Positions 7,253-58,574 of a stretch of 64,000 nt of DNA are shown one piece after another. The notes beneath the pieces are model-generated. The model made no database searches, had not been told where the DNA came from, and saw only the letters and a list, made by a program, of their open reading frames with translations. The stretch lies in the NCBI RefSeq assembly GCF_001989615.1, contig NZ_CP019067.1, forward strand, positions 806,001 to 870,000. The letters run 5' to 3'. How positions within the stretch are numbered: the first letter of the stretch is position 1; each line of letters starts with the position of its first letter. A program made the translations under genes and the position numbers. Origin of the DNA: Halorientalis sp. IM1011 (lineage in GTDB: Archaea; Halobacteriota; Halobacteria; Halobacteriales; Haloarculaceae).

Positions 7253-7903
7253 ATGCGATACGTCGAGGGCCTGTTGACGCCGGAACGCGGGTGGATTCAC
7301 CCCATCGAGCGGCGCATCCAGCAGGCACCGGGGATCAAGAACGAACGGATCCTCCAGATGGAACTGCTCGACGACGGCACGGTGACGACGATGTACGAAC
7401 TCAGCGGCGACCGCGAGGTCATCGAGTTCGCCGCCGAGTACGTCCCCGAACTCATCACCTACCAGGTCTCGCCGATGCAGGACCGCATCATCACCTACGC
7501 CCACCTCGAATCGAACGAGATGCTCACTGGCCTGCTGGAACTGCCGCACACGTACCAGATCGTCCCGGACTTCCCCATCGAGTTCGCAAGCAACGGCGGC
7601 ATCAAGCTGACAATCGTCGGCGACGAGGACCAGATCCGCGAGGCGATGGACGCCGTCCCCGACGGGATCTCCGTCGAACTCCAGAAACTCGGCGACTACG
7701 CCCCCGAGAACGAACGACTCCTCTCGCGACTCACCGACCGCCAGCGCGAGGTCGCCGAGATCGCCGTCGACATGGGCTACTACGACACGCCACGACAGGT
7801 CACCTACGACGACATCGCCGAGGAGGTCGAGGTGGCCCCCGGCACCGTCGGCGAGATCCTCAGAAAAGTCGAATCCCGACTGCTGAACGCACTTCTCGGG
7901 TAA
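7253..7903 (+). CDS. HTH-10 (bacterio-opsin activator-like) transcriptional regulator
   Basis: 216 residues. The C-terminal 60 residues form the HTH-10 domain typical of haloarchaeal Bat-like regulators (LTDRQREVAEIAVDMGYYD, YDDIAEEVEVAPGTVGEIL, KVESRLL). The N-terminal 140 residues match the sensor-like region common in this family but lack a recognisable PAS or GAF motif. ATG 7253 lies about 28 bp after GCATATGC, a possible TATA element. The target genes and signal are unknown. It is convergent with the next gene, its stop directly abutting that gene's stop. Confidence 0.88.
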   Translation: MRYVEGLLTPERGWIHPIERRIQQAPGIKNERILQMELLDDGTVTTMYELSGDREVIEFAAEYVPELITYQVSPMQDRIITYAHLESNEMLTGLLELPHTYQIVPDFPIEFASNGGIKLTIVGDEDQIREAMDAVPDGISVELQKLGDYAPENERLLSRLTDRQREVAEIAVDMGYYDTPRQVTYDDIAEEVEVAPGTVGEILRKVESRLLNALLG

Positions 7904-8365
7904 TCAGCGGCCGAAGCTCGGCTTCTGCGACCGGATCGACAGTTCCTGCCAGTGATTGATCGCCCAGTACCCGAAGCCGGTGGCGATCATCCCCGCCGCG
8001 AGGAAGTAAAACAGCAGGTGCGAGGTGACCAAGGCCCCCGGGTTCCGAACCGCGTGCAGGAGGCCTTCTCCGCCGAGCGTCAGGACGACGAGCGTGCCGA
8101 GTGCCACCACGCCCGCTCCGACGATGACCGTCCGACCGTCGAATCCCTGCGTCTCGGCGATCAGAACGGCGCCGACGAACGCCGTCGCCATCCCGAGAAC
8201 GTACGCCGGGAGCCGGTCACTCAGTCCGGTCGCCTGGCCCGAGACCAGTGCGACCAGTCCGACGAAACTCGCAGTCAACACGAGCGTACAGACCGCGACC
8301 AGTGCGCCCGCACGTCCGATCGATTCCACGTCGAACCGTCTGCGCCGTGCTATTGCCATATCCAT
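7904..8365 (-). CDS. four-helix membrane protein, unknown
   Basis: 153 residues with four predicted membrane segments, each followed by short loops (for example ALVAVCTLVLTASFVGLVAL and LPAYVLGMATAFVGAVLIA). The N-terminus is basic (MDMAIARRRRF), favouring a cytoplasmic N-terminus. ATG 8365 is chosen; ATG 8359 is an equally possible start two codons downstream. No family is recognised. It is separated by about 115 bp from the following lysine operon and is probably monocistronic. Confidence 0.7.
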   Translation of the reverse strand: MDMAIARRRRFDVESIGRAGALVAVCTLVLTASFVGLVALVSGQATGLSDRLPAYVLGMATAFVGAVLIAETQGFDGRTVIVGAGVVALGTLVVLTLGGEGLLHAVRNPGALVTSHLLFYFLAAGMIATGFGYWAINHWQELSIRSQKPSFGR

Positions 8366-8480
8366 ACCTCTCGGATCCGCCGACAAAAGCGTTTACGCGG
8401 CGTCTGACGGGCGTCTGCCGGGCGACTGCCGGGCGCTATCAGGACTGGTAATTCCGGTCGCCGACAGGACGTCTGGCGTA

Positions 8481-9554
8481 TCAGTCGAGCAGGGACTCGA
8501 CGGCCGCCGTCGCGATCTCACCGGCCCGTTCGACCTCGGAACGGCGAACGTACTCGCGCTCGGCGTGGGCCACTGCGCCCTCGTCGTCAGCCAGCACCCC
8601 CGGTCCGAACACGACCGTCGGCGCGTCGGCCGCGAAGTACGAGGCCTCCGTTGCCGCCCCGAACGGCCGGACCTCGCCCGCGCCAGCGTCCCGGAGTGCA
8701 GTCACCACGTCGCTGTCGGCGGGCGTGGCGAACGCTTCGAGGAACGGTGTCTCGCGCTCGGTGTACGCGAAGGAGAGGTCCATCGAGTCGGGAATCCAGG
8801 ACTGGAGGTGGGCCGACAGTTGCTCGCGGAAGCCCTGCTGGGTCTCGGGGGGAACGCTCCGACGGTCGATCGTTATTCTGCACTCGGCGGGAATCTGGTT
8901 CGTCGCCTCGCCGCCCTCGATCACGGTGGGTTCGAGCGTCGGTCGCCCGAGCGAGTCGTGCTCGGGCGGACCGACCGTCTCGTCGTAGGATTCGAGGGCC
9001 TGCAGGACGGGCGCAGCTGCACGGATCGCGCTCGCACCGCTCTCGGGTTCCGCCGCGTGGGCCGCGAGGCCCTCGATTTCGACTGTCCCCTCGAAGCGGC
9101 CCTTCGCGGCGTTACAGATGTCCAGTCCCGTCGGTTCGCCCACGATGTAGCCGTCCGCATCCAGGTCGAGCGCCGCCGCGCCCGTCGAGTACACTTCCTC
9201 GTCGGGCGTGACCGCCAGCGTCACTGTTCCGGACGCTATCTCGGCATCGAGAAACGCCGAGAGCAGGGCCGCGAGCGGTCCCTTCGCGTCGCAGGACCCC
9301 CGGCCTCGGACGATCTCACCGTCCCGTTCGAGAGGGACGTGGGGCGGTACCGTATCGATGTGCGTGTTCAGGACGATGTGTGGGCCGTCGGATTCCCCCT
9401 CGCGCGTCGCCAGGGTATTTCCGGCGTCGTCGATGCGGACCGAAACGCCCGCGTCTTCGAGCGTCTCGACCAGGTACTCGCGCATCTCGGTCACGTCCTC
9501 GTGGGAGGGGATCGAGACGGCGGTCTCGTGGAAGTCGAGGGGGTCGAACGCCAT
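8481..9554 (-). CDS. dapE: succinyl-diaminopimelate desuccinylase (M20 family)
   Basis: 357-residue zinc-dependent M20 peptidase-family enzyme, last gene of the lysine operon. It would remove succinate from N-succinyl-LL-diaminopimelate. Metal ligands are visible: His in NTHIDTVPPHVP, bridging Asp in GRGSCDAKGPLAALL, the catalytic Glu in TPDEEVYSTGA and a distal Glu in VGEPTG. The lid-domain region (GLAAHAAEPESG) contains the usual His. M20 enzymes vary in substrate (for example LysK/ArgE types), but the operon with dapD makes succinyl-DAP the natural reading. The start shares one base with the dapF stop. Confidence 0.92.
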   Translation of the reverse strand: MAFDPLDFHETAVSIPSHEDVTEMREYLVETLEDAGVSVRIDDAGNTLATREGESDGPHIVLNTHIDTVPPHVPLERDGEIVRGRGSCDAKGPLAALLSAFLDAEIASGTVTLAVTPDEEVYSTGAAALDLDADGYIVGEPTGLDICNAAKGRFEGTVEIEGLAAHAAEPESGASAIRAAAPVLQALESYDETVGPPEHDSLGRPTLEPTVIEGGEATNQIPAECRITIDRRSVPPETQQGFREQLSAHLQSWIPDSMDLSFAYTERETPFLEAFATPADSDVVTALRDAGAGEVRPFGAATEASYFAADAPTVVFGPGVLADDEGAVAHAEREYVRRSEVERAGEIATAAVESLLD

Positions 9555-10462
9555 CAGTCGTCACCCGGGACGGTGTCGAGTTCCACGTCGAAGGTCGTCG
9601 GGTCGACGACGGTCACCGTCCCGGTGTACTCGCGTTCGACCGGGCCCTGCAGGAGCGCGTCCCGATCGGTCAACTGGACGACCAGCCGACCACCAGGCGG
9701 GTGGGCCGGGACGCGCTGGCCCCGCTCGACCTTGCCGAGGCGCTCGGCAGCAGCGACGATGGCCACCGCACCCGTCCCACAGGAGTCGGTTTCGGCCTCG
9801 ACGCCGCGCTCGAAGGTCCGCTGGTCGAACCCACGAACCGTCCCGTCCGCGGCCTGACCGTCCGCCCGTGGCGCGGCGAAGTTGACGTTCGCGCCCTCGG
9901 GAAACACGTCGGCGTCCCGGACCGCGGGCGCGACGGCCTCCACGTCGACGCTCGTCACGTCGTCGACGAACGCGACGGCGTGGGGAACGCCGGTGTTGAC
10001 CGCCGTGACCGTCAGGCCCTCCACCTCCCGTTCGATCATGGGTTCGTCGCCGACGACGGGGACACGATCGGGTTCGAACGTGGGCGCACCCATCTCGATG
10101 GTGACGCCCTGCTCGCCGATCTCGGCGCGGCGCGTACCGGCCTGCGTGTCGATCATGACCTCCGGGGAACCGGTGCGTTCGGCGACCCACTTCGCCGCAC
10201 AGCGGGCGCCGTTGCCGCACATGGCCGCGACGCTCCCGTCCGGTTGAACCAGCGTCATCACGACCCGGGGCGGGGAGTACTCGTCCTCCAGCGCCAGAAA
10301 GAGGACGCCATCGGCCCCGCGTTTGCGCGCGTTGGGGTGATCGAGCCCGGTCTCCCGGTCACAGAGGTCGGCCGCGAACGCCCGGCGGTCCGGTACGTCC
10401 TCTGTCGCGTCGACGATGATGAAGTCGTTGCCCGTGCCGTGATACTTCTCTACTTCGACCAT
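9554..10462 (-). CDS. dapF: diaminopimelate epimerase
   Basis: 302-residue PLP-independent epimerase converting LL- to meso-diaminopimelate. Both catalytic cysteines are in their conserved settings: MCGNGARC and DSCGTGAVA. The N-terminal KYHGTGNDFIIVD is also typical. Length is slightly above the bacterial 275-280, from acidic insertions normal in haloarchaea. The ATG overlaps the end of lysA by 13 bp and the stop meets dapE, consistent with translational coupling along the operon. Confidence 0.96.
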   Translation of the reverse strand: MVEVEKYHGTGNDFIIVDATEDVPDRRAFAADLCDRETGLDHPNARKRGADGVLFLALEDEYSPPRVVMTLVQPDGSVAAMCGNGARCAAKWVAERTGSPEVMIDTQAGTRRAEIGEQGVTIEMGAPTFEPDRVPVVGDEPMIEREVEGLTVTAVNTGVPHAVAFVDDVTSVDVEAVAPAVRDADVFPEGANVNFAAPRADGQAADGTVRGFDQRTFERGVEAETDSCGTGAVAIVAAAERLGKVERGQRVPAHPPGGRLVVQLTDRDALLQGPVEREYTGTVTVVDPTTFDVELDTVPGDD

Positions 10463-11697
10463 GTTTCCAGTTCTGTAATGTCCGCGACCGCTTCCCGGCG
10501 AACCGCCAGCCGCGCGTCGGTACCGTCGAGGGCAACGACCGCCGGCCGCGGCCGGGAGTTGTAGTTGCTGCTCATCTCGTAGCCGTAGGCGCCCGCGTTC
10601 CCGACCGCGAGCAGGTCGCCCCGCTCGGAGTCGGGGAGCGGACGGTCCTCGCCCAGCACGTCCGCCGTCTCGCAGATCGGGCCGGCGACGGTCACCGAGA
10701 CGGTCTCGCGCCGATCGGCGTCACTCGCCAGCGAGCGGATCGTGTGATACGAGTCGTACATCGCCGGACGGACCAGCGTCGTCATGCCGGCGTCGACGCC
10801 CACGACGGTCGTCTCGGGCGTCGGCTTGACCGTATTGACCCGCGTCAGTAACACGCCGGCGTCCGCGACGAAGTACCGGCCGGGTTCGATCCCCAGTCGG
10901 GCGTCGACATCGCCGAACGCCTCCCGGGTCGCCGCCGCAACCGCGTCCAGATCCAGCGGGTCCTCCTCCTCCCGATAGGGAACCCCGAGGCCACCGCCGA
11001 CGTTGACGAACTCGATAGTGCCTACGTCGGAAATTACCCTCCGTGCAAGGTCACCCATCCGCGCGACGAGTTCGCGGTGGGCCTGCAGGTCCTCGCCGGA
11101 GATACCGCTCCCGGCGTGGGCGTGCAGGCCCACGAGGTCGAACCCGCGGTCGACGGCCTCGCTGGCGAGGTCGGGCACCCGGTCCATCGGGACCCCGAAC
11201 TTGGGGGCCGCGCCGGTCGACACCTTCTCGTGGTGACCGGCACCGACCCCGGGGTTCGCCCGGATACAGAGCCGGCCGGAAAAGCCGCGCTCGTCGAGAC
11301 GGTCGAGGGTGTCGGCCGCGCCCACGGTCACGATCAAATCGTGGTCGGCGGCGGCGTCGACGACGTAGTCCAGATCCTCCTCCGGCGGGTTCACCGCCGT
11401 GTAGCGGACGGCTTCGCCGTCGAATCCCGCGGCGAGGGCGCGTTCGACTTCCCCCGCGGAGGCGCACTCGGCACCGACACCGGTGGACTCGATGGTCTCG
11501 AGCACCGGCCGGGTGGTGTTGGCCTTGACGGCGTAGCTGATCTCCTCGGCGTCGAAGGCACTCTGGAGCCGGGCGGCGTTCTCGCGCACCCGGTCGGGAT
11601 CGAGGACGTACAGCGGCGTGTCGAACTCGGCGGCGAGGTCGCGCAGTCGCTCGGCGTCCCAGTCGGACAGCCGGCGGACCGCGACCCCCGAGCTCAT
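10450..11697 (-). CDS. lysA: diaminopimelate decarboxylase
   Basis: 415-residue fold-III PLP enzyme that decarboxylates meso-diaminopimelate to lysine. The PLP lysine lies in ISYAVKANTTRPVLE. HAHAGSGI, GGGLGVPY and EPGRYFVADAG provide phosphate and substrate contacts, and GPICETADVLGEDR carries the active-site Cys of the partner subunit. Length matches the family. The start overlaps the dapD stop by 4 bp. It sits between dapD and dapF although it acts last in the pathway. Confidence 0.96.
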   Translation of the reverse strand: MSSGVAVRRLSDWDAERLRDLAAEFDTPLYVLDPDRVRENAARLQSAFDAEEISYAVKANTTRPVLETIESTGVGAECASAGEVERALAAGFDGEAVRYTAVNPPEEDLDYVVDAAADHDLIVTVGAADTLDRLDERGFSGRLCIRANPGVGAGHHEKVSTGAAPKFGVPMDRVPDLASEAVDRGFDLVGLHAHAGSGISGEDLQAHRELVARMGDLARRVISDVGTIEFVNVGGGLGVPYREEEDPLDLDAVAAATREAFGDVDARLGIEPGRYFVADAGVLLTRVNTVKPTPETTVVGVDAGMTTLVRPAMYDSYHTIRSLASDADRRETVSVTVAGPICETADVLGEDRPLPDSERGDLLAVGNAGAYGYEMSSNYNSRPRPAVVALDGTDARLAVRREAVADITELETWSK

Positions 11698-51675: not shown

Positions 51676-52989
51676 TCACTCGATAGCCTGCTCGACGTGG
51701 TCGACGACGTAGTCGGCGAACTCCTCGCCGGCCTGCTGGCTGAACTGGCTGCGCAGGTACCGGAAGGAGAGGTTGACCTCGCCCTGGAATGTGGCGACGC
51801 CGATAGCGACCGGCGTCCCCCGCCAGGCCGGGGGAGAGAACCACGGCCGTTCCTCGGCGTCCGGTTCCAGCGAGGGCATCGCGGGAATCCGCCCGAGGTT
51901 CGACAGCATCGCGGTGTCGAGCAGGCGGCGACCGGGGCCACGGAGCAGACGGGGAAGCTGGCGTTTCAGCTCCACCGGCGTCCCCGGCGGCAACATCTCC
52001 AGCATCTTGTAGAGTGCGGCCGCCCGGTCGCGCTCGGTGAGCTCCTCGGTCTGCTCGCCGATCTCCCGGGCCGCCGTCATGTGGTCGGTCCGGTCGCGTG
52101 AGCGGGTCTCGACGCTCTCGAACATCGAGTACATCCCCGCCACCTGGTAGAACCAGTCGTCGGGTCGGAGGTTGACCGGCATCATGACGCTGATCTTCCG
52201 CGCCGATTTGCCGTGGTCCGCGTTCCACTCCTCGATGGCCATGTGCAGGGCCGCCTGCAACACGTCGTTGACGGACACGCCGTCGGGTCGGTCGCCGATC
52301 AGCCGCGCCGTCAGGTCGGCGTCGAGTTTCCGCCGGGAGAACCGCCAGCCGTCCTCGTCGGTGCCTCCGACTTTCGCGATGCGGGTCGGCGAGTCGACCA
52401 CGTTCTGGAGGTGTCGCGTCGCCGAATCGACCACGTTCAGCCCGTCGTCCAGCGACTTGGGCCGCAGGTCGTCGAGCATCGTTCTGGACTCCTGAAAGCT
52501 CACTGAGTCCTGCATCGGCTCGTCACCGCGGTAGGCCTCACAGATGGCCTGTGCGATGCGCAGCGTTCCGACCCCGTCTGCGGCGACGTGGTTCATGCTC
52601 ACGAGCAACCGGTCGCCGCCGTCGATCCCTGCCCCTCGAACGACCAGGAGTCGGAACGGCGGCTGCTCGGTGAGGTCGAACCGCCGGTAGTAGAGCTGGT
52701 TCTGGATCTCCTCCAAGTCCCGGCCTTCGCCGTTTATCTCGCCGACCTCGACCGCGTACTCGTCGTCGGGAATCGACCACTCGAAGCGGGTATCGGAGAG
52801 GTCGCTCGGCCGCTTTCGCGCCCCGGCGATCGGATGGACCGCACAGGCCGTCGCCGCGGCCTCGCCGAGTCTATCCACGTCCACCGTGACCGTCGTCTCC
52901 AGTTCCGCCTGGATGTTCCAGGGCTGGAACTCGTGTTCGATGTGATGGACCGACTCCTCGATCATCGAGAACGGCACTGTCGTGCTCAC
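51676..52989 (-). CDS. condensation-domain-type acyltransferase (WS/DGAT, PapA or CAT-like fold)
   Basis: 437 residues. The family hallmark appears as NHVAADGVG (about residues 133-141), preceded by YYRRFDLTEQPPFRLLVVRG, a typical strand pair before the active site. A second-half segment PVNLRPDDWFYQVAGMYSMF matches the usual xxVNLRP region of these acyltransferases. The first His of HHxxxDG is Asn here, but the catalytic His and Asp are present. It would transfer an acyl group between thioesters and an alcohol or amine. GTG 52989 is chosen; ATG 52965 is possible. No carrier-protein gene is adjacent. Confidence 0.85.
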   Translation of the reverse strand: MSTTVPFSMIEESVHHIEHEFQPWNIQAELETTVTVDVDRLGEAAATACAVHPIAGARKRPSDLSDTRFEWSIPDDEYAVEVGEINGEGRDLEEIQNQLYYRRFDLTEQPPFRLLVVRGAGIDGGDRLLVSMNHVAADGVGTLRIAQAICEAYRGDEPMQDSVSFQESRTMLDDLRPKSLDDGLNVVDSATRHLQNVVDSPTRIAKVGGTDEDGWRFSRRKLDADLTARLIGDRPDGVSVNDVLQAALHMAIEEWNADHGKSARKISVMMPVNLRPDDWFYQVAGMYSMFESVETRSRDRTDHMTAAREIGEQTEELTERDRAAALYKMLEMLPPGTPVELKRQLPRLLRGPGRRLLDTAMLSNLGRIPAMPSLEPDAEERPWFSPPAWRGTPVAIGVATFQGEVNLSFRYLRSQFSQQAGEEFADYVVDHVEQAIE

Positions 52990-53014
52990 CGGTTCTCACC
53001 CCGTTTCTGACCCC

Positions 53015-53039
53015 ACATATCTGAGTCACGTTCGTGACT
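53015..53039 (-). promoter_or_regulatory. promoter with perfect dyad upstream of the acyltransferase
   Basis: TATA-like AGATATGTGG (53013-53022 on the minus strand) about 28 bp before the GTG start. Directly upstream is a perfect 7-bp inverted repeat, AGTCACG-TT-CGTGACT (53024-53039). A further ATTCACG half-site lies at about 53048-53054. Position just upstream of the TATA element suits an activator or a BRE-blocking repressor. Confidence 0.55.
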
Positions 53040-53137
53040 ACACATAAATTCACGACAATCGGCCCGGTTTTTGGGTGCGGAGTGGTCGAGCGCCCGCTCA
53101 CGCAATTCATTAGGTCACCCCACCCCGAGCGGGAGGC

Positions 53138-53644
53138 ATGCGCGTCGCAGTCGGCAGCGAGAATCCGGTGAAGGTGGCCGCGACCGAGCGGGCGCTCCCC
53201 GACGCCTCCGCCGAACCCGTCGACGTGGCGTCGGGCGTCCCCGAACAGCCCTGCGGGCGCGACCAGACGATCACCGGCGCGCGGAACCGCGCCGCGGCCG
53301 CACTGGAAGCGACGGGGGCGGAGCTTGGGGTCGGCATCGAGGGCGGCGTCGCACACGTCGAGGCCACCGAGGGGCTCTTCCTGATCATGTGGGCCGCCGT
53401 CACCGACGGAGATCGGTGGGGTGTCGGCGGCGGTCCGAGCCTCCGACTGCCCGCACCTGTCGCGGCCCGCGTCGAGGACGGCGACGAACTCGGGCCGGTG
53501 ATGGACGACCTGCTCGACACCGAGAACGTGGCCGAGCGACAGGGTGCGGCAGGGGTGCTCACCGGCGAACGGATCGACCGCGAGTCGTCGCTGGTCCACG
53601 CCGTGGCGAGCGCGGCCGGCCCGTTCGTCACGGATCGGTACTAG
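53138..53644 (+). CDS. DUF84 family inosine/xanthosine triphosphatase
   Basis: 168 residues. RVAVGSENPVKVAATERALP provides the GxxNPxK nucleotide-binding motif. GRDQTITGARNRAAAALEAT and ELGVGIEGGVAHVEATEGLF follow, and FLIMWAAVTDGDRWGVGGG and RQGAAGVLTGERIDRESSLV complete the pattern. These proteins hydrolyse damaged purine nucleoside triphosphates (YjjX-like). A leaderless start is supported by ATTCATTAGG about 28 bp upstream. The TAG stop shares a CTAG with aglD. Confidence 0.92.
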   Translation: MRVAVGSENPVKVAATERALPDASAEPVDVASGVPEQPCGRDQTITGARNRAAAALEATGAELGVGIEGGVAHVEATEGLFLIMWAAVTDGDRWGVGGGPSLRLPAPVAARVEDGDELGPVMDDLLDTENVAERQGAAGVLTGERIDRESSLVHAVASAAGPFVTDRY

Positions 53645-55503
53645 GCGGCTTCGTCGCCGGTTTCGGCGGCGCTCGCGCCCGTCTCACCCTCGGTCTCGGC
53701 GACGGCGGTGGTCAGCGAGACGTTGAGCCAGGCCATCGAGACCAGTCCGCCGGCGACGGTGATCAGGTTCTTGACCGCGTGGTCGACGATAGCGATGCCG
53801 AGCGCGACCAGCGCAGTGAGTTCGGGGACCGCGGTCAGGCCGACGACGATGATGGTGAACGCCCCCTCGTACAGTCCGATCCCGCCGGGCGAGAGCGGCA
53901 GGATTTTCGCGAGGTTCCCGACGGAGACGGCGAAGAACGCGACCGCGGTCAGATACGGCGTCACCGGGATGCCGAAGGCCGCGAACACGATCAGCGCGGT
54001 CACCACGTCCAGCGTCCAGATGGCGAGGCTCCCGACACCGACCCGGAGGAAGGCCCCGCGGTCGCTGATCACCCGTTCGACGTCGCCGACGAACCGCTCG
54101 ATCACGCCCGCGACGTACTCGGCGTAGGAGTCGTTGCTGATGGCGCGGACCCCCCGCCGCACGAGGTTGGTGTCCCGGCGAGCGTTGACGACGATGACTA
54201 CCACCGCGAGGATGGCGACCAGTCCGACGCCGGCCGCAACACCCATCGCGGTCTCGGCCGCTGCCGCAGGGTTCAGCGTCTCGCCGCCGATGGTGATCGT
54301 CCCCACGTCCGCGGCGATGGCCGCGACCACCTCGTCGGTCCCGCCGGTCGCCACGAGGCCGAGGAGGACGGTCCCCCCGAGTACCGTGATCGACAGCAGG
54401 TCGAACACGCGCTCGACGGCCAGCGACGCGAACCCGGTGGGGTAGGGAATCGACCGGCGAGCCTTCACGACGTAAGCCCGCACCGCGTCGCCGGCCCGCG
54501 CCGGGAACACGAGGTTGCCGGTCTGACTGATGAATATCGCCCCCGTCAGGAACCACGTGTCACCGTCGTAGTCCAGCCGCGACAGGATATCCCGGTAGCG
54601 CAGGCCGCGGAGCGGCCACGAGAGGAGATAGACCACCCCCGAGAGGGCGACCAGCGCCGGATCGGCCCCCGTGATCGCATCCAGCACCGCCGCGGGCTCC
54701 AGATAGACCAGCATCAGCGCCAGCGCGACGAATACGAGCACCGACCCGGCGGTCATGCTCACCCGCCGCGTCAGGCGGGGGCTCACCGACACCTGCCACC
54801 ACGTCCGGAGTATCTGACTGCCCATTCCGAACACGTCCCGTACGAGGTCGACCTTCGAGTCGCCCTGTGGCGTCCACTCGACGGGAAACTCCGCGACGCG
54901 GTAGCCCGCTCGCTGGGCCCGGACGAGTACTTCGGTGTCCCAGAACCAGTGTTCGTCCTCCACGTCGTCCAGCAGGGAAAGCAGGGCCTCGCGGTCGAAG
55001 GCCTTGAACCCGCACTGGTGATCGAGCAGATCCGACCGCAGGAACAGGCGAACCAGCCGGTTGTACCCCTTCGAAGGGATGCCCCGCTTGGCGGGCCGGT
55101 CGGCGTCGGCCCCGGGGACCCACCGCGACCCGGTCGCCACGTCGAACTCGTCGGATCGGACGCGCTCGACCAGTTCTTCGAGGTGGCGCATGTCCGTCGC
55201 GAGGTCGGTGTCGAAGTAGACGAGCGTCTCACCCTCGCTGGCACGGAAGGCCGCTTCGAGGGCCTTCCCACGACCGAGGCGCTCGTCGCTGTGGAAGTGG
55301 CGGACGCGCTCGTCGTCGCTGGCTAGTCGCTCGGCGATCTCGGGCGTCCGGTCCGCACAGCCGTCCTCGGCGACGATCACCTCGAAGGACTCGGCTGGGA
55401 GAAAGGATTCGAGCGTCTCGAGGGTAATCTCGACCGTGTCCTCCAGTGTCTCCGCCTCGTTGTAGGCGGGGAGGACGACGCTCACCTCCCGGCTCGGACT
55501 CAT
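53641..55503 (-). CDS. aglD: AglD-type glycosyltransferase fused to a flippase-like membrane domain
   Basis: 620 residues. The N-terminal 240 residues are a GT2 glycosyltransferase: VSVVLPAYNEAETLEDTVEI, a DTD metal site in LVYFDTDLATDMRH, and CGFKAFDREALLSLLDDVED. The rest is a multi-pass lysylphosphatidylglycerol-synthase-type membrane domain with about eight helices. In Haloferax AglD has exactly this build and adds the last sugar of the N-linked glycan via dolichol phosphate. The zim-like gene nearby matches the Haloferax neighbourhood as I recall it. ATG 55503 gives MSPSREVSVV. Confidence 0.9.
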   Translation of the reverse strand: MSPSREVSVVLPAYNEAETLEDTVEITLETLESFLPAESFEVIVAEDGCADRTPEIAERLASDDERVRHFHSDERLGRGKALEAAFRASEGETLVYFDTDLATDMRHLEELVERVRSDEFDVATGSRWVPGADADRPAKRGIPSKGYNRLVRLFLRSDLLDHQCGFKAFDREALLSLLDDVEDEHWFWDTEVLVRAQRAGYRVAEFPVEWTPQGDSKVDLVRDVFGMGSQILRTWWQVSVSPRLTRRVSMTAGSVLVFVALALMLVYLEPAAVLDAITGADPALVALSGVVYLLSWPLRGLRYRDILSRLDYDGDTWFLTGAIFISQTGNLVFPARAGDAVRAYVVKARRSIPYPTGFASLAVERVFDLLSITVLGGTVLLGLVATGGTDEVVAAIAADVGTITIGGETLNPAAAAETAMGVAAGVGLVAILAVVVIVVNARRDTNLVRRGVRAISNDSYAEYVAGVIERFVGDVERVISDRGAFLRVGVGSLAIWTLDVVTALIVFAAFGIPVTPYLTAVAFFAVSVGNLAKILPLSPGGIGLYEGAFTIIVVGLTAVPELTALVALGIAIVDHAVKNLITVAGGLVSMAWLNVSLTTAVAETEGETGASAAETGDEAA

Positions 55504-55706
55504 TGCCCGTCCTTCCACCAGCGCGCAAAAGTACCTTCTGTTAGCCCACGGGACCGGCCCCCGATCCCGACAACCCGACCCGGCCCGAACCGCCACCGCA
55601 CCTGGGCCGCCCGGGCAGGACTGCCACCGGAAAAACCGGTCCAGTCTGTTCTTTCGGAACGGGAACCGCCGTCACTTTTTCACGTCCCCGGGACGCACCC
55701 CTATAC

Positions 55707-55912: not shown

Positions 55913-57634
55913 TCAGTCCGCACTCTCGCGACTCCCGACCGTCAGGAACCTGTCGAGATCGATCTCCGCGCTCACCTCGCCGACCGACTCGTGTGGCCGG
56001 TCGACGACGATGTCCCCTGCGGTCCGTTTCCCGATTCCCGGAATCTCGGTCAGCTCGTCCATCGAGGCGGCGTTCAGGTCGAGCGGGTAGGGCACCCCCG
56101 ACACCGACCGATAACCGTGGCCCGTGACCGCCACGTCGACGGTCCGCCCGAGGTCGCGCTCGCCCGGAATCCCCACCAGCAGCGGGTAGGTTCCCAGTTG
56201 CCGGCCGAAGGTGTAGCCGTCCTCGTGGTACTCCAGATGCACGTCCGGCAGGACCGTCCCCGGCGGGGCCACCCGCTGGAGCATCGGGTTGTCGATGGTC
56301 TCCCGGACCTCGCTTTTGTACTGTTTGAACTGCTGTTTGTGGTCCTTGGCGATCTCCGCGCCGGTGTCGGCCATGTCGGTCCCCTCGAAGGCCATCACCT
56401 GCCGGATGTTGACCCGCCGGAGCATCAGCCCCTCGTCGTACACCCGCTGGAGGAACGCCTTGTTGTGCTCGAAGGTCTCCGTCCGCTCGCCCTTCAGCCC
56501 GTGGACGAGGTTGATCCCGGGCAGGAGCTTCGGGAGTCGCGGCGAGGCGTCGTCTCCGAAGTTGGGCGCTGAGTCCGGGTCACCACCGGGTCTGAAGCCC
56601 GCTTCCTCGTTGACGATCTTCACCGCCTCGAAACACTCCTCGGCGGAGACGTTGAGGTTGTTCTCCTCCTGCACGAGCGGATCGGCCGACTCGAGCCCGA
56701 ACGCAGCCGTGTCGCCGGGCGTGTTGTGCTCCGCGATGATCCGGATACCCTCACGAGCCTTCTCCGGCCACTTCACGACCGTGATCGGGTTCATGTTGTC
56801 CAGATGGAGCGTATCGAGGTCGGGCGCGACCTCCCTGATGCCGCTGTAGAGGTCCCGGAGGGCGTCGGGGTTGGGTTTCTCGCCGTCGCCGCCGTAGGCG
56901 AGGATGTCGGCCTGCCGGCCGAGTCGGAAGTCGGAGACGCCGTGGTCGGACAGCGCGGCCACCTCGTCGACGACGCTCTCCGGCGGTCTGAAGTCCGGAT
57001 CGCCGTACATCGGTTCCGTACAGAACGAACACCGGTAGGGACAGCCCCGAGAGGTCTCCAGTTCCGCGAGGATGTACTCGGGGTGGTTGGGGTGTTGCTC
57101 GACGACGAACGCGCCCCGTTTCGCCCAGCGAGTCTCCTCCGGAACCCCGCGATAGCGGTCCTCGAACCCCTCTAATCCATTGTGAACGAGGTCGTAGGCC
57201 GCCGCCTCCACGTCGGCCATCGCGAGGAAGTCGAAGTCCAGGTCGTCACGGGCGGTCTCGGAGGCTCCTTCGTTTGCCTCGCCGACGCCGAAGCGGACGG
57301 GGCCGCCGATCATCGAGACGCCCTCGGCGGTCCAGGCGATCTGGCGCACTTCGTCGGGTTCGGCGGGCGTCCCCCCGACGTACTTCCCGGGGACGGTCAT
57401 CCCGCCGACGTAGATCAGCAGATCCGCGTCCTCCACGTCGCGCCATCGCGAGGAGTCGTCCCGGAGCGCGTCGATAGTGTGGTAGGTGATCCGCTCCTCG
57501 GGGACGCCGGCGTCGACCAGCGCCCCGGCGGTGTAGCGCGGATACGTCGAGATGTAGGGCGGCACGCCGAAGTGCGCCGGCTCGTCGACGTAGCCGTCGA
57601 CGATGGTCACGTCGATCTCGGCCGGGTCGGTCAT
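55913..57634 (-). CDS. radical SAM protein with C-terminal helix-hairpin-helix
   Basis: 573 residues from ATG 57634. Residues 1-190 resemble a cobalamin-binding-type N-terminal domain without an obvious His loop (FGVPPYISTYPRYTAGALVD). The radical SAM core begins at ELETSRGCPYRCSFC, with the three Cys at 198, 202 and 205. GMTVPG and IPGINLVHGLKGERTETFEH follow. The C-terminus has LNAASMDELTEIPGIGKRTA, a helix-hairpin-helix usually found in DNA-binding proteins. The substrate is unknown. In haloarchaea this family is conserved next to aglD. Confidence 0.88.
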   Translation of the reverse strand: MTDPAEIDVTIVDGYVDEPAHFGVPPYISTYPRYTAGALVDAGVPEERITYHTIDALRDDSSRWRDVEDADLLIYVGGMTVPGKYVGGTPAEPDEVRQIAWTAEGVSMIGGPVRFGVGEANEGASETARDDLDFDFLAMADVEAAAYDLVHNGLEGFEDRYRGVPEETRWAKRGAFVVEQHPNHPEYILAELETSRGCPYRCSFCTEPMYGDPDFRPPESVVDEVAALSDHGVSDFRLGRQADILAYGGDGEKPNPDALRDLYSGIREVAPDLDTLHLDNMNPITVVKWPEKAREGIRIIAEHNTPGDTAAFGLESADPLVQEENNLNVSAEECFEAVKIVNEEAGFRPGGDPDSAPNFGDDASPRLPKLLPGINLVHGLKGERTETFEHNKAFLQRVYDEGLMLRRVNIRQVMAFEGTDMADTGAEIAKDHKQQFKQYKSEVRETIDNPMLQRVAPPGTVLPDVHLEYHEDGYTFGRQLGTYPLLVGIPGERDLGRTVDVAVTGHGYRSVSGVPYPLDLNAASMDELTEIPGIGKRTAGDIVVDRPHESVGEVSAEIDLDRFLTVGSRESAD

Positions 57635-57746
57635 GCTCGCTCCTTGCCCGCCGACGCGTATAACGGTGTCTGACTCGCCCGATCCCGAGCTTACGATCAT
57701 GGCCCGTTCCCCCACGTTCTTGGGACCGCCCCGCGTACCCTCGGCC

Positions 57747-58574
57747 ATGCCCTCCGCGGTCTCGTGGCGGTACGACTACGGCACCGAGCCGTGGCTCCGC
57801 TGGCTCGTCCGGGCCGGCATGGCCGCCGTCTTCGGCGTCTACGCCGGGATCCTCGCGCTCGGCGTGCTCGGCGTCGTCCTCGTGTTTTTCGTCGGTAGCA
57901 TGGAAGTCCGTCTGTTCGTGCTCCTCCTCGCGCTGATCGGCGGCCCCTTCTCGCTGTTGTACCTCCTGCCGATGATCACCGACGAGTCCCAGCGTAAACT
58001 CCCGTTTACCGGTCGCGAGCCGAGGATTCCCGGCCGGGAACGGGTCGCGACCGGCATCGTTGGCGGCCTGACGCTCGCGGTTGCGATGGTGATCGACGAG
58101 CGACTGGCGCTCGCGCTGTTCGCCGCCGGATTCCTCGCCGGTGTGGTCGGCGTGGTCTGCTCGACACGCGGTGAGATCGATCCCGAGACGGCCACCTACG
58201 CGGACCACTATCGCGAGCGGGACCTCTCGCGGGCCACCGACTTCAGCACACGGTGGATCGGCCCATTCGTGGTCGTCTCCCTCTCGGCGTCCGGACCCGG
58301 GAGTTTCGGGGCGGTTCCCTCGTGGATTCTCGTCCCCGCGACCGTCGCCGACGACGCGACGGCCGCACTCGACGAGATCGTCGCAAAGACCGAGGACGAA
58401 ACGGACCGGGACCCGAATCCCGCGGTCAGGGCGGTCGCCGTGGCCTTCGCCGTCCTGCTGTTCGGGACCGGCGCGGCCGCCGTGACGCAACTTGGCGGGC
58501 CGGTCGGCTGGTGGGCCGCGACGATCATGGGGTTTTTCGGCGTGATCTTCCTCGCCGTCGCTCGGGAGGGATAA
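57747..58574 (+). CDS. multi-pass membrane protein, unknown
   Basis: 275 residues with about six hydrophobic segments (AAVFGVYAGILALGVLGVVL, LFVLLLALIGGPFSLLYLLP, and a C-terminal pair around GWWAATIMGFFGVIFLAVAR). A cytoplasmic loop carries PSAVSWRYDYGTEPWLRW at the N-terminus. ATG 57747 is preferred; the frame upstream lacks hydrophobic or conserved character and would overlap the radical SAM gene start. No family is recognised. Confidence 0.72.
   Translation: MPSAVSWRYDYGTEPWLRWLVRAGMAAVFGVYAGILALGVLGVVLVFFVGSMEVRLFVLLLALIGGPFSLLYLLPMITDESQRKLPFTGREPRIPGRERVATGIVGGLTLAVAMVIDERLALALFAAGFLAGVVGVVCSTRGEIDPETATYADHYRERDLSRATDFSTRWIGPFVVVSLSASGPGSFGAVPSWILVPATVADDATAALDEIVAKTEDETDRDPNPAVRAVAVAFAVLLFGTGAAAVTQLGGPVGWWAATIMGFFGVIFLAVAREG

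Follow-up and report, generated by a model that had tools for sequence, protein, structure and literature searches.

The DNA considered here, 64,000 nucleotides from Halorientalis sp. IM1011 (hereafter the window), contains an ORF on the minus strand (51676-52989, GTG start, 437 aa) that encodes a candidate acyltransferase. Which acyl group such an enzyme would transfer in a haloarchaeon, and to which acceptor, is the question raised by this locus. Wax esters, first demonstrated in archaea in 2025, were shown in Natronomonas pharaonis, and those of Haloarculaceae are reported to be made by WS/DGAT and the fatty acyl-CoA reductase FcrA (PMC11948995). The acyltransferase described here may stand in for the usual wax enzyme in archaea that carry the other wax-pathway genes without that enzyme. 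On sequence comparisons, the balance is about even for a stand-alone acyl-CoA-dependent O-acyltransferase of the condensation superfamily, wax ester synthase-like, that would replace WS/DGAT in Halorientalis. An earlier, sequence-only reading of the locus is right about the protein, which is more interesting than that reading stated, and fails over a dyad at the promoter.

The acyltransferase and its family

The active-site motif, NHVAADG (residues 133-139; 52573-52593, minus strand), retains H134, D138 and G139 in 30/30 aligned family members, with N, S or C immediately before the His. The ND motif (residues 241-242; 52264-52269, minus strand) lies within SVNDVL, which hhalign pairs with INDVLL of the haloarchaeal WS/DGATs; V240, N241 and D242 are likewise invariant (30/30). 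PVNLRP (residues 271-276; 52162-52179, minus strand) belongs to the segment MPVNLRP (residues 270-276), pairs with WS/DGAT PVNLKP in the profile alignment, and has P271, N273 and R275 unchanged throughout the 30 members. The same is true of N364, G366 and P369 in SNLGRIP (residues 363-369; 51883-51903, minus strand), which occupies the place of TNVPGP, a motif invariant in 17 aligned haloarchaeal WS/DGATs. NHVAADG conforms to the [H/N]HxxxDG signature of WS/DGAT, NHxxxDG being present instead of HHxxxDG in 22/30 haloarchaeal WS/DGATs (PMC11948995); SNLGRIP departs from the SN/TNVPGP signature.

Profile searches point to the condensation superfamily. Pfam Condensation (PF00668) gives 50 bits for the window protein, above the gathering cutoff of 30.6, and matches 30/30 family members at E 0.01. 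WS_DGAT_cat is matched marginally (25.2 vs 23.6 bits), PapA_C (PF16911) reaches 26.6 bits, below its cutoff of 30, and matches 20/30 members, and the WS/DGAT profile TIGR02946 gives 38.9 bits, far below the NCBIfam cutoff of 309.95. No stretch of the family exceeds this last cutoff in the genomes searched by profile, the top score being 50.1 bits in G080. Placement among WS/DGAT, PapA and C domains thus yields PF00668 over its cutoff and TIGR02946 and PF16911 under theirs. The sequence-only reading had named a condensation/WS-DGAT acyltransferase from an xHxxxDG motif and a VNLRP-like segment; superfamily and motifs stand, and membership of the classical WS/DGATs is ruled out by the TIGR02946 cutoff and the SN[VL] motif. 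Its remark that no carrier or synthetase genes are adjacent was borne out when the neighbours were scanned. These are a TFB, a DUF84/inosine-xanthosine triphosphatase-like gene, a glycosyltransferase-flippase fusion and a DNA methylase; the acyltransferase gene is stand-alone, with adenylation or carrier domains neither fused to it nor adjacent. It is also the sole PF00668 gene of the genome, the two stretches matched in a profile search both falling within it. The fusion near it in Halorientalis joins a family-2 glycosyltransferase to a flippase-like LPG_synthase_TM membrane domain (53641-55596, minus strand), and the window also encodes a radical SAM protein that ends in a C-terminal helix-hairpin-helix domain (55913-57748, minus strand).

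An AlphaFold2 model of the window protein (pLDDT 86.5, pTM 0.88) has as its top fold match AzeD (PDB 8s6l; Z 35.7, rmsd 3.9 over 415 residues), deposited under the molecule name phthiocerol/phthiodiolone dimycocerosyl transferase. C domains match at Z about 30 (29.5 for 7c1l, the starter C domain of RzmA with C8-CoA), and the WS/DGAT structure 6chj matches at Z 25.5 over 345 residues. A profile search of the PDB matched C-type domains (PCP-C didomains best) and the PapA-like AzeD entry, and no WS/DGAT at E 0.01. With HxxxDG invariant in 30/30 members and a modelled fold of the chloramphenicol-acetyltransferase type, the predicted fold and catalytic residues are clear. Compared by hhalign with haloarchaeal WS/DGATs (alignment A2, 17 of the over-cutoff proteins), the family is collinear over its full length (E 3e-10), and its H, ND, PVNL and [ST]N motifs fall into register with theirs; in the tree, which includes six of these WS/DGATs, long branches split the two. 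By sequence, the family is thus a third branch beside WS/DGAT and the PapA/C domains.

The family is patchily distributed, occurring in 19/146 Haloarculaceae genomes and 5/22 genera. A scan of 392 genomes from the order added two, both of another taxonomic family, and a single genome carries at most three copies. The patchiness agrees with the earlier view that such pathways are unusual for archaea, though archaeal fatty-ester synthesis as such is no longer unheard of (PMC11948995). A profile of the family alignment (A1) was run against 90 genomes from the phylum, 13 of which belong to the order; at E 1e-10 it matched the window genome and no other. Among plasmids, the search gave a full-length but weak bacterial match in Embleya (25% identity; no genes are listed for that stretch) and, in Nocardia, a partial one. 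At the protein level, H. regularis, H. persicus and H. pallida are close named relatives of the window (92-94% identity). Loci L002-L004, being named copies of those in G079, G078 and G081, were counted once; the family gene at L038, L039, L040, L049 and L065 was missing from the automatic neighbour gene calls and was recovered separately. A G098 copy with an internal TGA and a G050 fragment (100 residues, 35%), both from genomes that also possess WS/DGAT, are counted in the 19 and omitted from A1 and the tree. The G098 copy (L059:8837-10141, minus strand) occurs with an fcrA-WS/DGAT cluster present and may represent decay of a redundant copy. G076, a Halorientalis genome without FcrA, has a tandem acyltransferase duplicate at the TFB locus (L047:9541-12251, minus strand), 56-60% identical to the window protein.

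FcrA, the DUF445 cassette and their distribution

The window genome encodes two HMG-CoA reductases and no over-cutoff WS/DGAT. The canonical enzyme scores 478.2 on TIGR00533; its paralogue P0002 has an extra N-terminal domain (PF25653) and scores 332.9 vs the cutoff of 441.8. P0002 is 71-94% identical over its full length to the FcrA proteins of 26 other genomes vs 41% to its own canonical HMGR. Its domain architecture (PF25653 with an HMGR domain) and co-occurrence, rather than the sequences of that paper, suggest that P0002 is FcrA in the sense of PMC11948995, and it is taken as the FcrA of the wax pathway in this genome. Pfam scores FcrA as an HMG-CoA reductase, which calls for caution in annotation. 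PF25653 was unmatched in all 14 control genomes. PF25653 is also found in proteins of about 290-300 aa, fused to a TrmB/HVO_A0261-like winged helix (L057:3700-4605 and L127:997-1857, both minus strand), which are candidate transcription factors sensing the same ligand as FcrA. Similar short PF25653 frames occur in many WS/DGAT genomes and not in the five FcrA-bearing Halorientalis.

Among the 146 Haloarculaceae genomes, WS/DGAT is present in 26, the acyltransferase family in 19, FcrA in 27 and DUF445 in 32. FcrA accompanies WS/DGAT in 22 of its 27 genomes; the five without WS/DGAT are all Halorientalis with the acyltransferase family only (G000, G075, G078, G079, G080), and none of the 146 genomes has FcrA without one or the other acyltransferase. 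WS/DGAT without FcrA occurs in four genomes, all 72-78% complete. The DUF445 membrane protein is found in 32/34 genomes with either acyltransferase, the two that lack it being 75% and 82% complete, and in 0/112 with neither. Eight genomes have the acyltransferase family alone, with DUF445 in 8/8 and FcrA in 5/8; those without FcrA are G076, G081 and G122, two of which are 99% complete. The Fisher values (p = 1.2e-12 and 2.9e-7) ignore shared ancestry and overstate the case, because seven of these eight genomes belong to one genus. Contrasts within genera point the same way as the overall coupling: Halorientalis G077 is without the acyltransferase family, FcrA and DUF445, and G122, the only g15 genome with the family and no WS/DGAT, has four DUF445 matches. 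Three tandem DUF445 genes were seen in G122 (L138:7973-12574, plus strand), a genome without WS/DGAT or FcrA. The family and WS/DGAT occur together in 11 genomes, so the family need not be a replacement.

DUF445 is part of a conserved cassette comprising a very acidic phasin-like coiled-coil protein, the DUF445 membrane protein and an Abi-alpha-domain protein; the name phasin-like is our reading of the acidic coiled coil, which has no curated match. The window genome carries it at about 2.126-2.130 Mb (L136, G000:C1:2118500-2138400, positions 7680-11507, minus strand), and it is also seen at L132-L134, L137, L140 and L141. A control profile for PHA synthase (TIGR01836) exceeds its cutoff in 123/146 genomes, with any match in 127, and is unmatched in nine DUF445 genomes. 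Because TIGR01836 is near-universal and unmatched in those nine, the distribution of DUF445 is no simple reflection of PHA storage, and PHA granules are ruled out as the explanation of the cassette.

Gene order ties these elements together in some genomes. The order fcrA, phasin-like, DUF445, Abi-alpha-domain protein, WS/DGAT is shared by G098, G109 and G111. G080 has DUF445, SCP2-like, fcrA and, next, the window gene's orthologue, which diverges from fcrA, the two coding starts being 247 bp apart; this orthologue groups with the window clade (97/99 support) and stands at the place where WS/DGAT genomes carry WS/DGAT. The window genome has fcrA at about 1.919-1.921 Mb, and its acyltransferase gene is unlinked, with fcrA about 1.06 Mb away and the DUF445 cassette about 1.27 Mb away. 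A different setting is found in 5/6 g15 genomes with the family (G116, G117, G119, G122, G131; loci L037, L038, L054, L062, L065), where the gene lies between the pantoate kinase and phosphopantothenate synthetase genes of CoA biosynthesis; the sixth, G118, has the pantoate kinase side only. Pantoate kinase is here our probable assignment of a GHMP-kinase match beside PPS_PS. An acyltransferase gene inside a CoA biosynthesis cluster fits a CoA-thioester substrate and proves nothing.

Proposed function, its alternatives and the promoter

The observations to be explained are the predicted fold, the motifs, the distinct family, the FcrA orthologue and cassette, the phyletic coupling and the fcrA adjacency in G080; from these we infer substrates, catalysis and a role in storage. 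They are best accommodated by a non-WS/DGAT enzyme predicted to do the WS/DGAT job. Fatty acids, imported or alkane-derived, would be activated to acyl-CoA by FadD, and FcrA, an HMG-CoA-reductase paralogue, would reduce part of the acyl-CoA to fatty alcohol. His134 of NHxxxDG would act as general base, and the acyl group would move from CoA to the FcrA-made alcohol; the wax ester product would be stored in inclusions carrying the phasin-like protein and the DUF445 membrane protein. More tentatively, the PapA/condensation-type family, acting alongside FcrA in Halorientalis, could be a second, WS/DGAT-independent archaeal wax synthase, and the phasin-like/DUF445/Abi-alpha cassette a dedicated wax-inclusion apparatus common to both systems. 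Several points weaken the wax-synthase reading: in the model, PapA-like AzeD and the C domains come before WS/DGAT as nearest folds, the gene is unlinked to fcrA in the window genome, 3/8 genomes with the family alone lack FcrA, and bacterial FcrA is reported often to occur without WS/DGAT (PMC11948995).

The fold and profile matches to AzeD, and the PF16911 matches in 20/30 members, would also suit a PapA-like acyltransferase for another acceptor (an isoprenoid or ether-lipid alcohol, a carotenoid or a glycolipid), which would share in the fatty-acyl-CoA lifestyle of its genomes without being a wax synthase. Several diverged copies per genome, and co-residence with WS/DGAT in 11 genomes, speak for it as well. 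Such a role is nevertheless somewhat unlikely in view of the exact fit of the family to the five FcrA genomes without WS/DGAT and of the G080 orthologue that adjoins fcrA. Another possible role is that of an auxiliary wax/ester synthase having an acyl or alcohol range of its own (e.g. short-chain or isoprenoid alcohols); it would accompany WS/DGAT in genomes that carry both, and in Halorientalis would act by itself on substrates not from FcrA. This view draws on the presence of WS/DGAT in 11/19 family genomes and on the 3/8 family-alone genomes that have DUF445 without FcrA, but for the window clade at least, the fcrA-linked copy of G080 favours alcohols made by FcrA, which makes this role improbable. 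A condensation-domain role in nonribosomal peptide synthesis or a similar pathway, suggested by PF00668 as best Pfam match and PCP-C didomains as best PDB profile matches, is highly improbable for a stand-alone gene with no other PF00668 gene in the genome and the neighbours named above, and an NRPS role is rejected on this missing context.

The dyad noted at the promoter is real: AGTCACGTTCGTGACT, 16 bp at 53024-53039, is a perfect 7-2-7 dyad with arms AGTCACG and CGTGACT around TT. The earlier placement was upstream of the TATA element; since transcription follows the minus strand, the dyad in fact sits downstream of this element and ahead of the start codon, the order from 5' being TTTATG (-59 to -54), dyad (-50 to -35), GGGGTGA (-13 to -7) and GTG. 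The TATA-like TTTATG (53043-53048, minus strand) lies inside TGAATTTATGTG, a 12-base block that is invariant in 6/6 aligned Halorientalis promoters (an alignment without G076 and G080), as is the Shine-Dalgarno-like GGGGTGA six bases ahead of GTG (52996-53002, minus strand); the block TATGTGGGG is invariant in the aligned orthologous promoters too. The dyad itself is absent from 5/5 aligned orthologous promoters, where its right half is not kept, and this was the outcome that the sequence-only reading had set against itself. The window has 19 perfect 7-2-7 dyads, where 20 first-order simulations average 12.25; a 7-bp dyad with a spacer of 0-10 turns up in 6.5% of random 60-bp stretches, and a scan for this particular dyad with up to 2 mismatches found it once in the window, with 0.56 expected. 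The dyad is accordingly judged a chance feature and no conserved operator, and the regulated expression it had been taken to imply is not borne out. In its position ahead of the start codon and past the TATA element, a perfect dyad would make a plausible site for a repressor of the acyltransferase gene, but its chance-level frequency and its loss in 5/5 orthologous promoters leave that idea barely credible.

Significance and comparison with known systems

If the family is a wax synthase, surveys by TIGR02946 or by a bacterial WS/DGAT query, the means reported for the 2025 survey, miss genomes, including those of Halorientalis, a genus in which one named member, Halorientalis hydrocarbonoclasticus, degrades hydrocarbons (cited in PMC11948995). 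The FcrA genes that occur without WS/DGAT would then gain a partner, and the DUF445/phasin-like cassette offers testable candidates for the building of archaeal neutral-lipid inclusions. Halorientalis appears once in PMC11948995, in the reference list, the second paper that mentions both the genus and wax esters is a list of names, and no paper tying the genus to wax ester synthesis was found in a literature whose reach excluded most subscription journals and all supplements.

The acyltransferase shares with WS/DGAT, including the haloarchaeal NHxxxDG type (PMC11948995), the CAT/condensation fold, [N/H]HxxxDG, ND and PVNL in the same order, and co-occurrence with FcrA and DUF445. Unlike WS/DGAT, it scores 38.9 vs 309.95 bits, has SNLGRIP rather than TNVPGP, and forms a separate clade across long branches. 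AzeD and the PapA-type acyltransferases (PF16911) resemble it as stand-alone enzymes, AzeD being the best fold match (Z 35.7), but identity is 18%, PF16911 stays at 26.6 bits, below 30, and the context here is one of fatty acyl-CoA and wax genes. NRPS condensation domains, including acyl-CoA-using starter C domains such as that of RzmA (7c1l), have the same fold (Z about 30) and HxxxDG, whereas the window gene is found without NRPS modules, carrier proteins or any other PF00668 gene in its genome.
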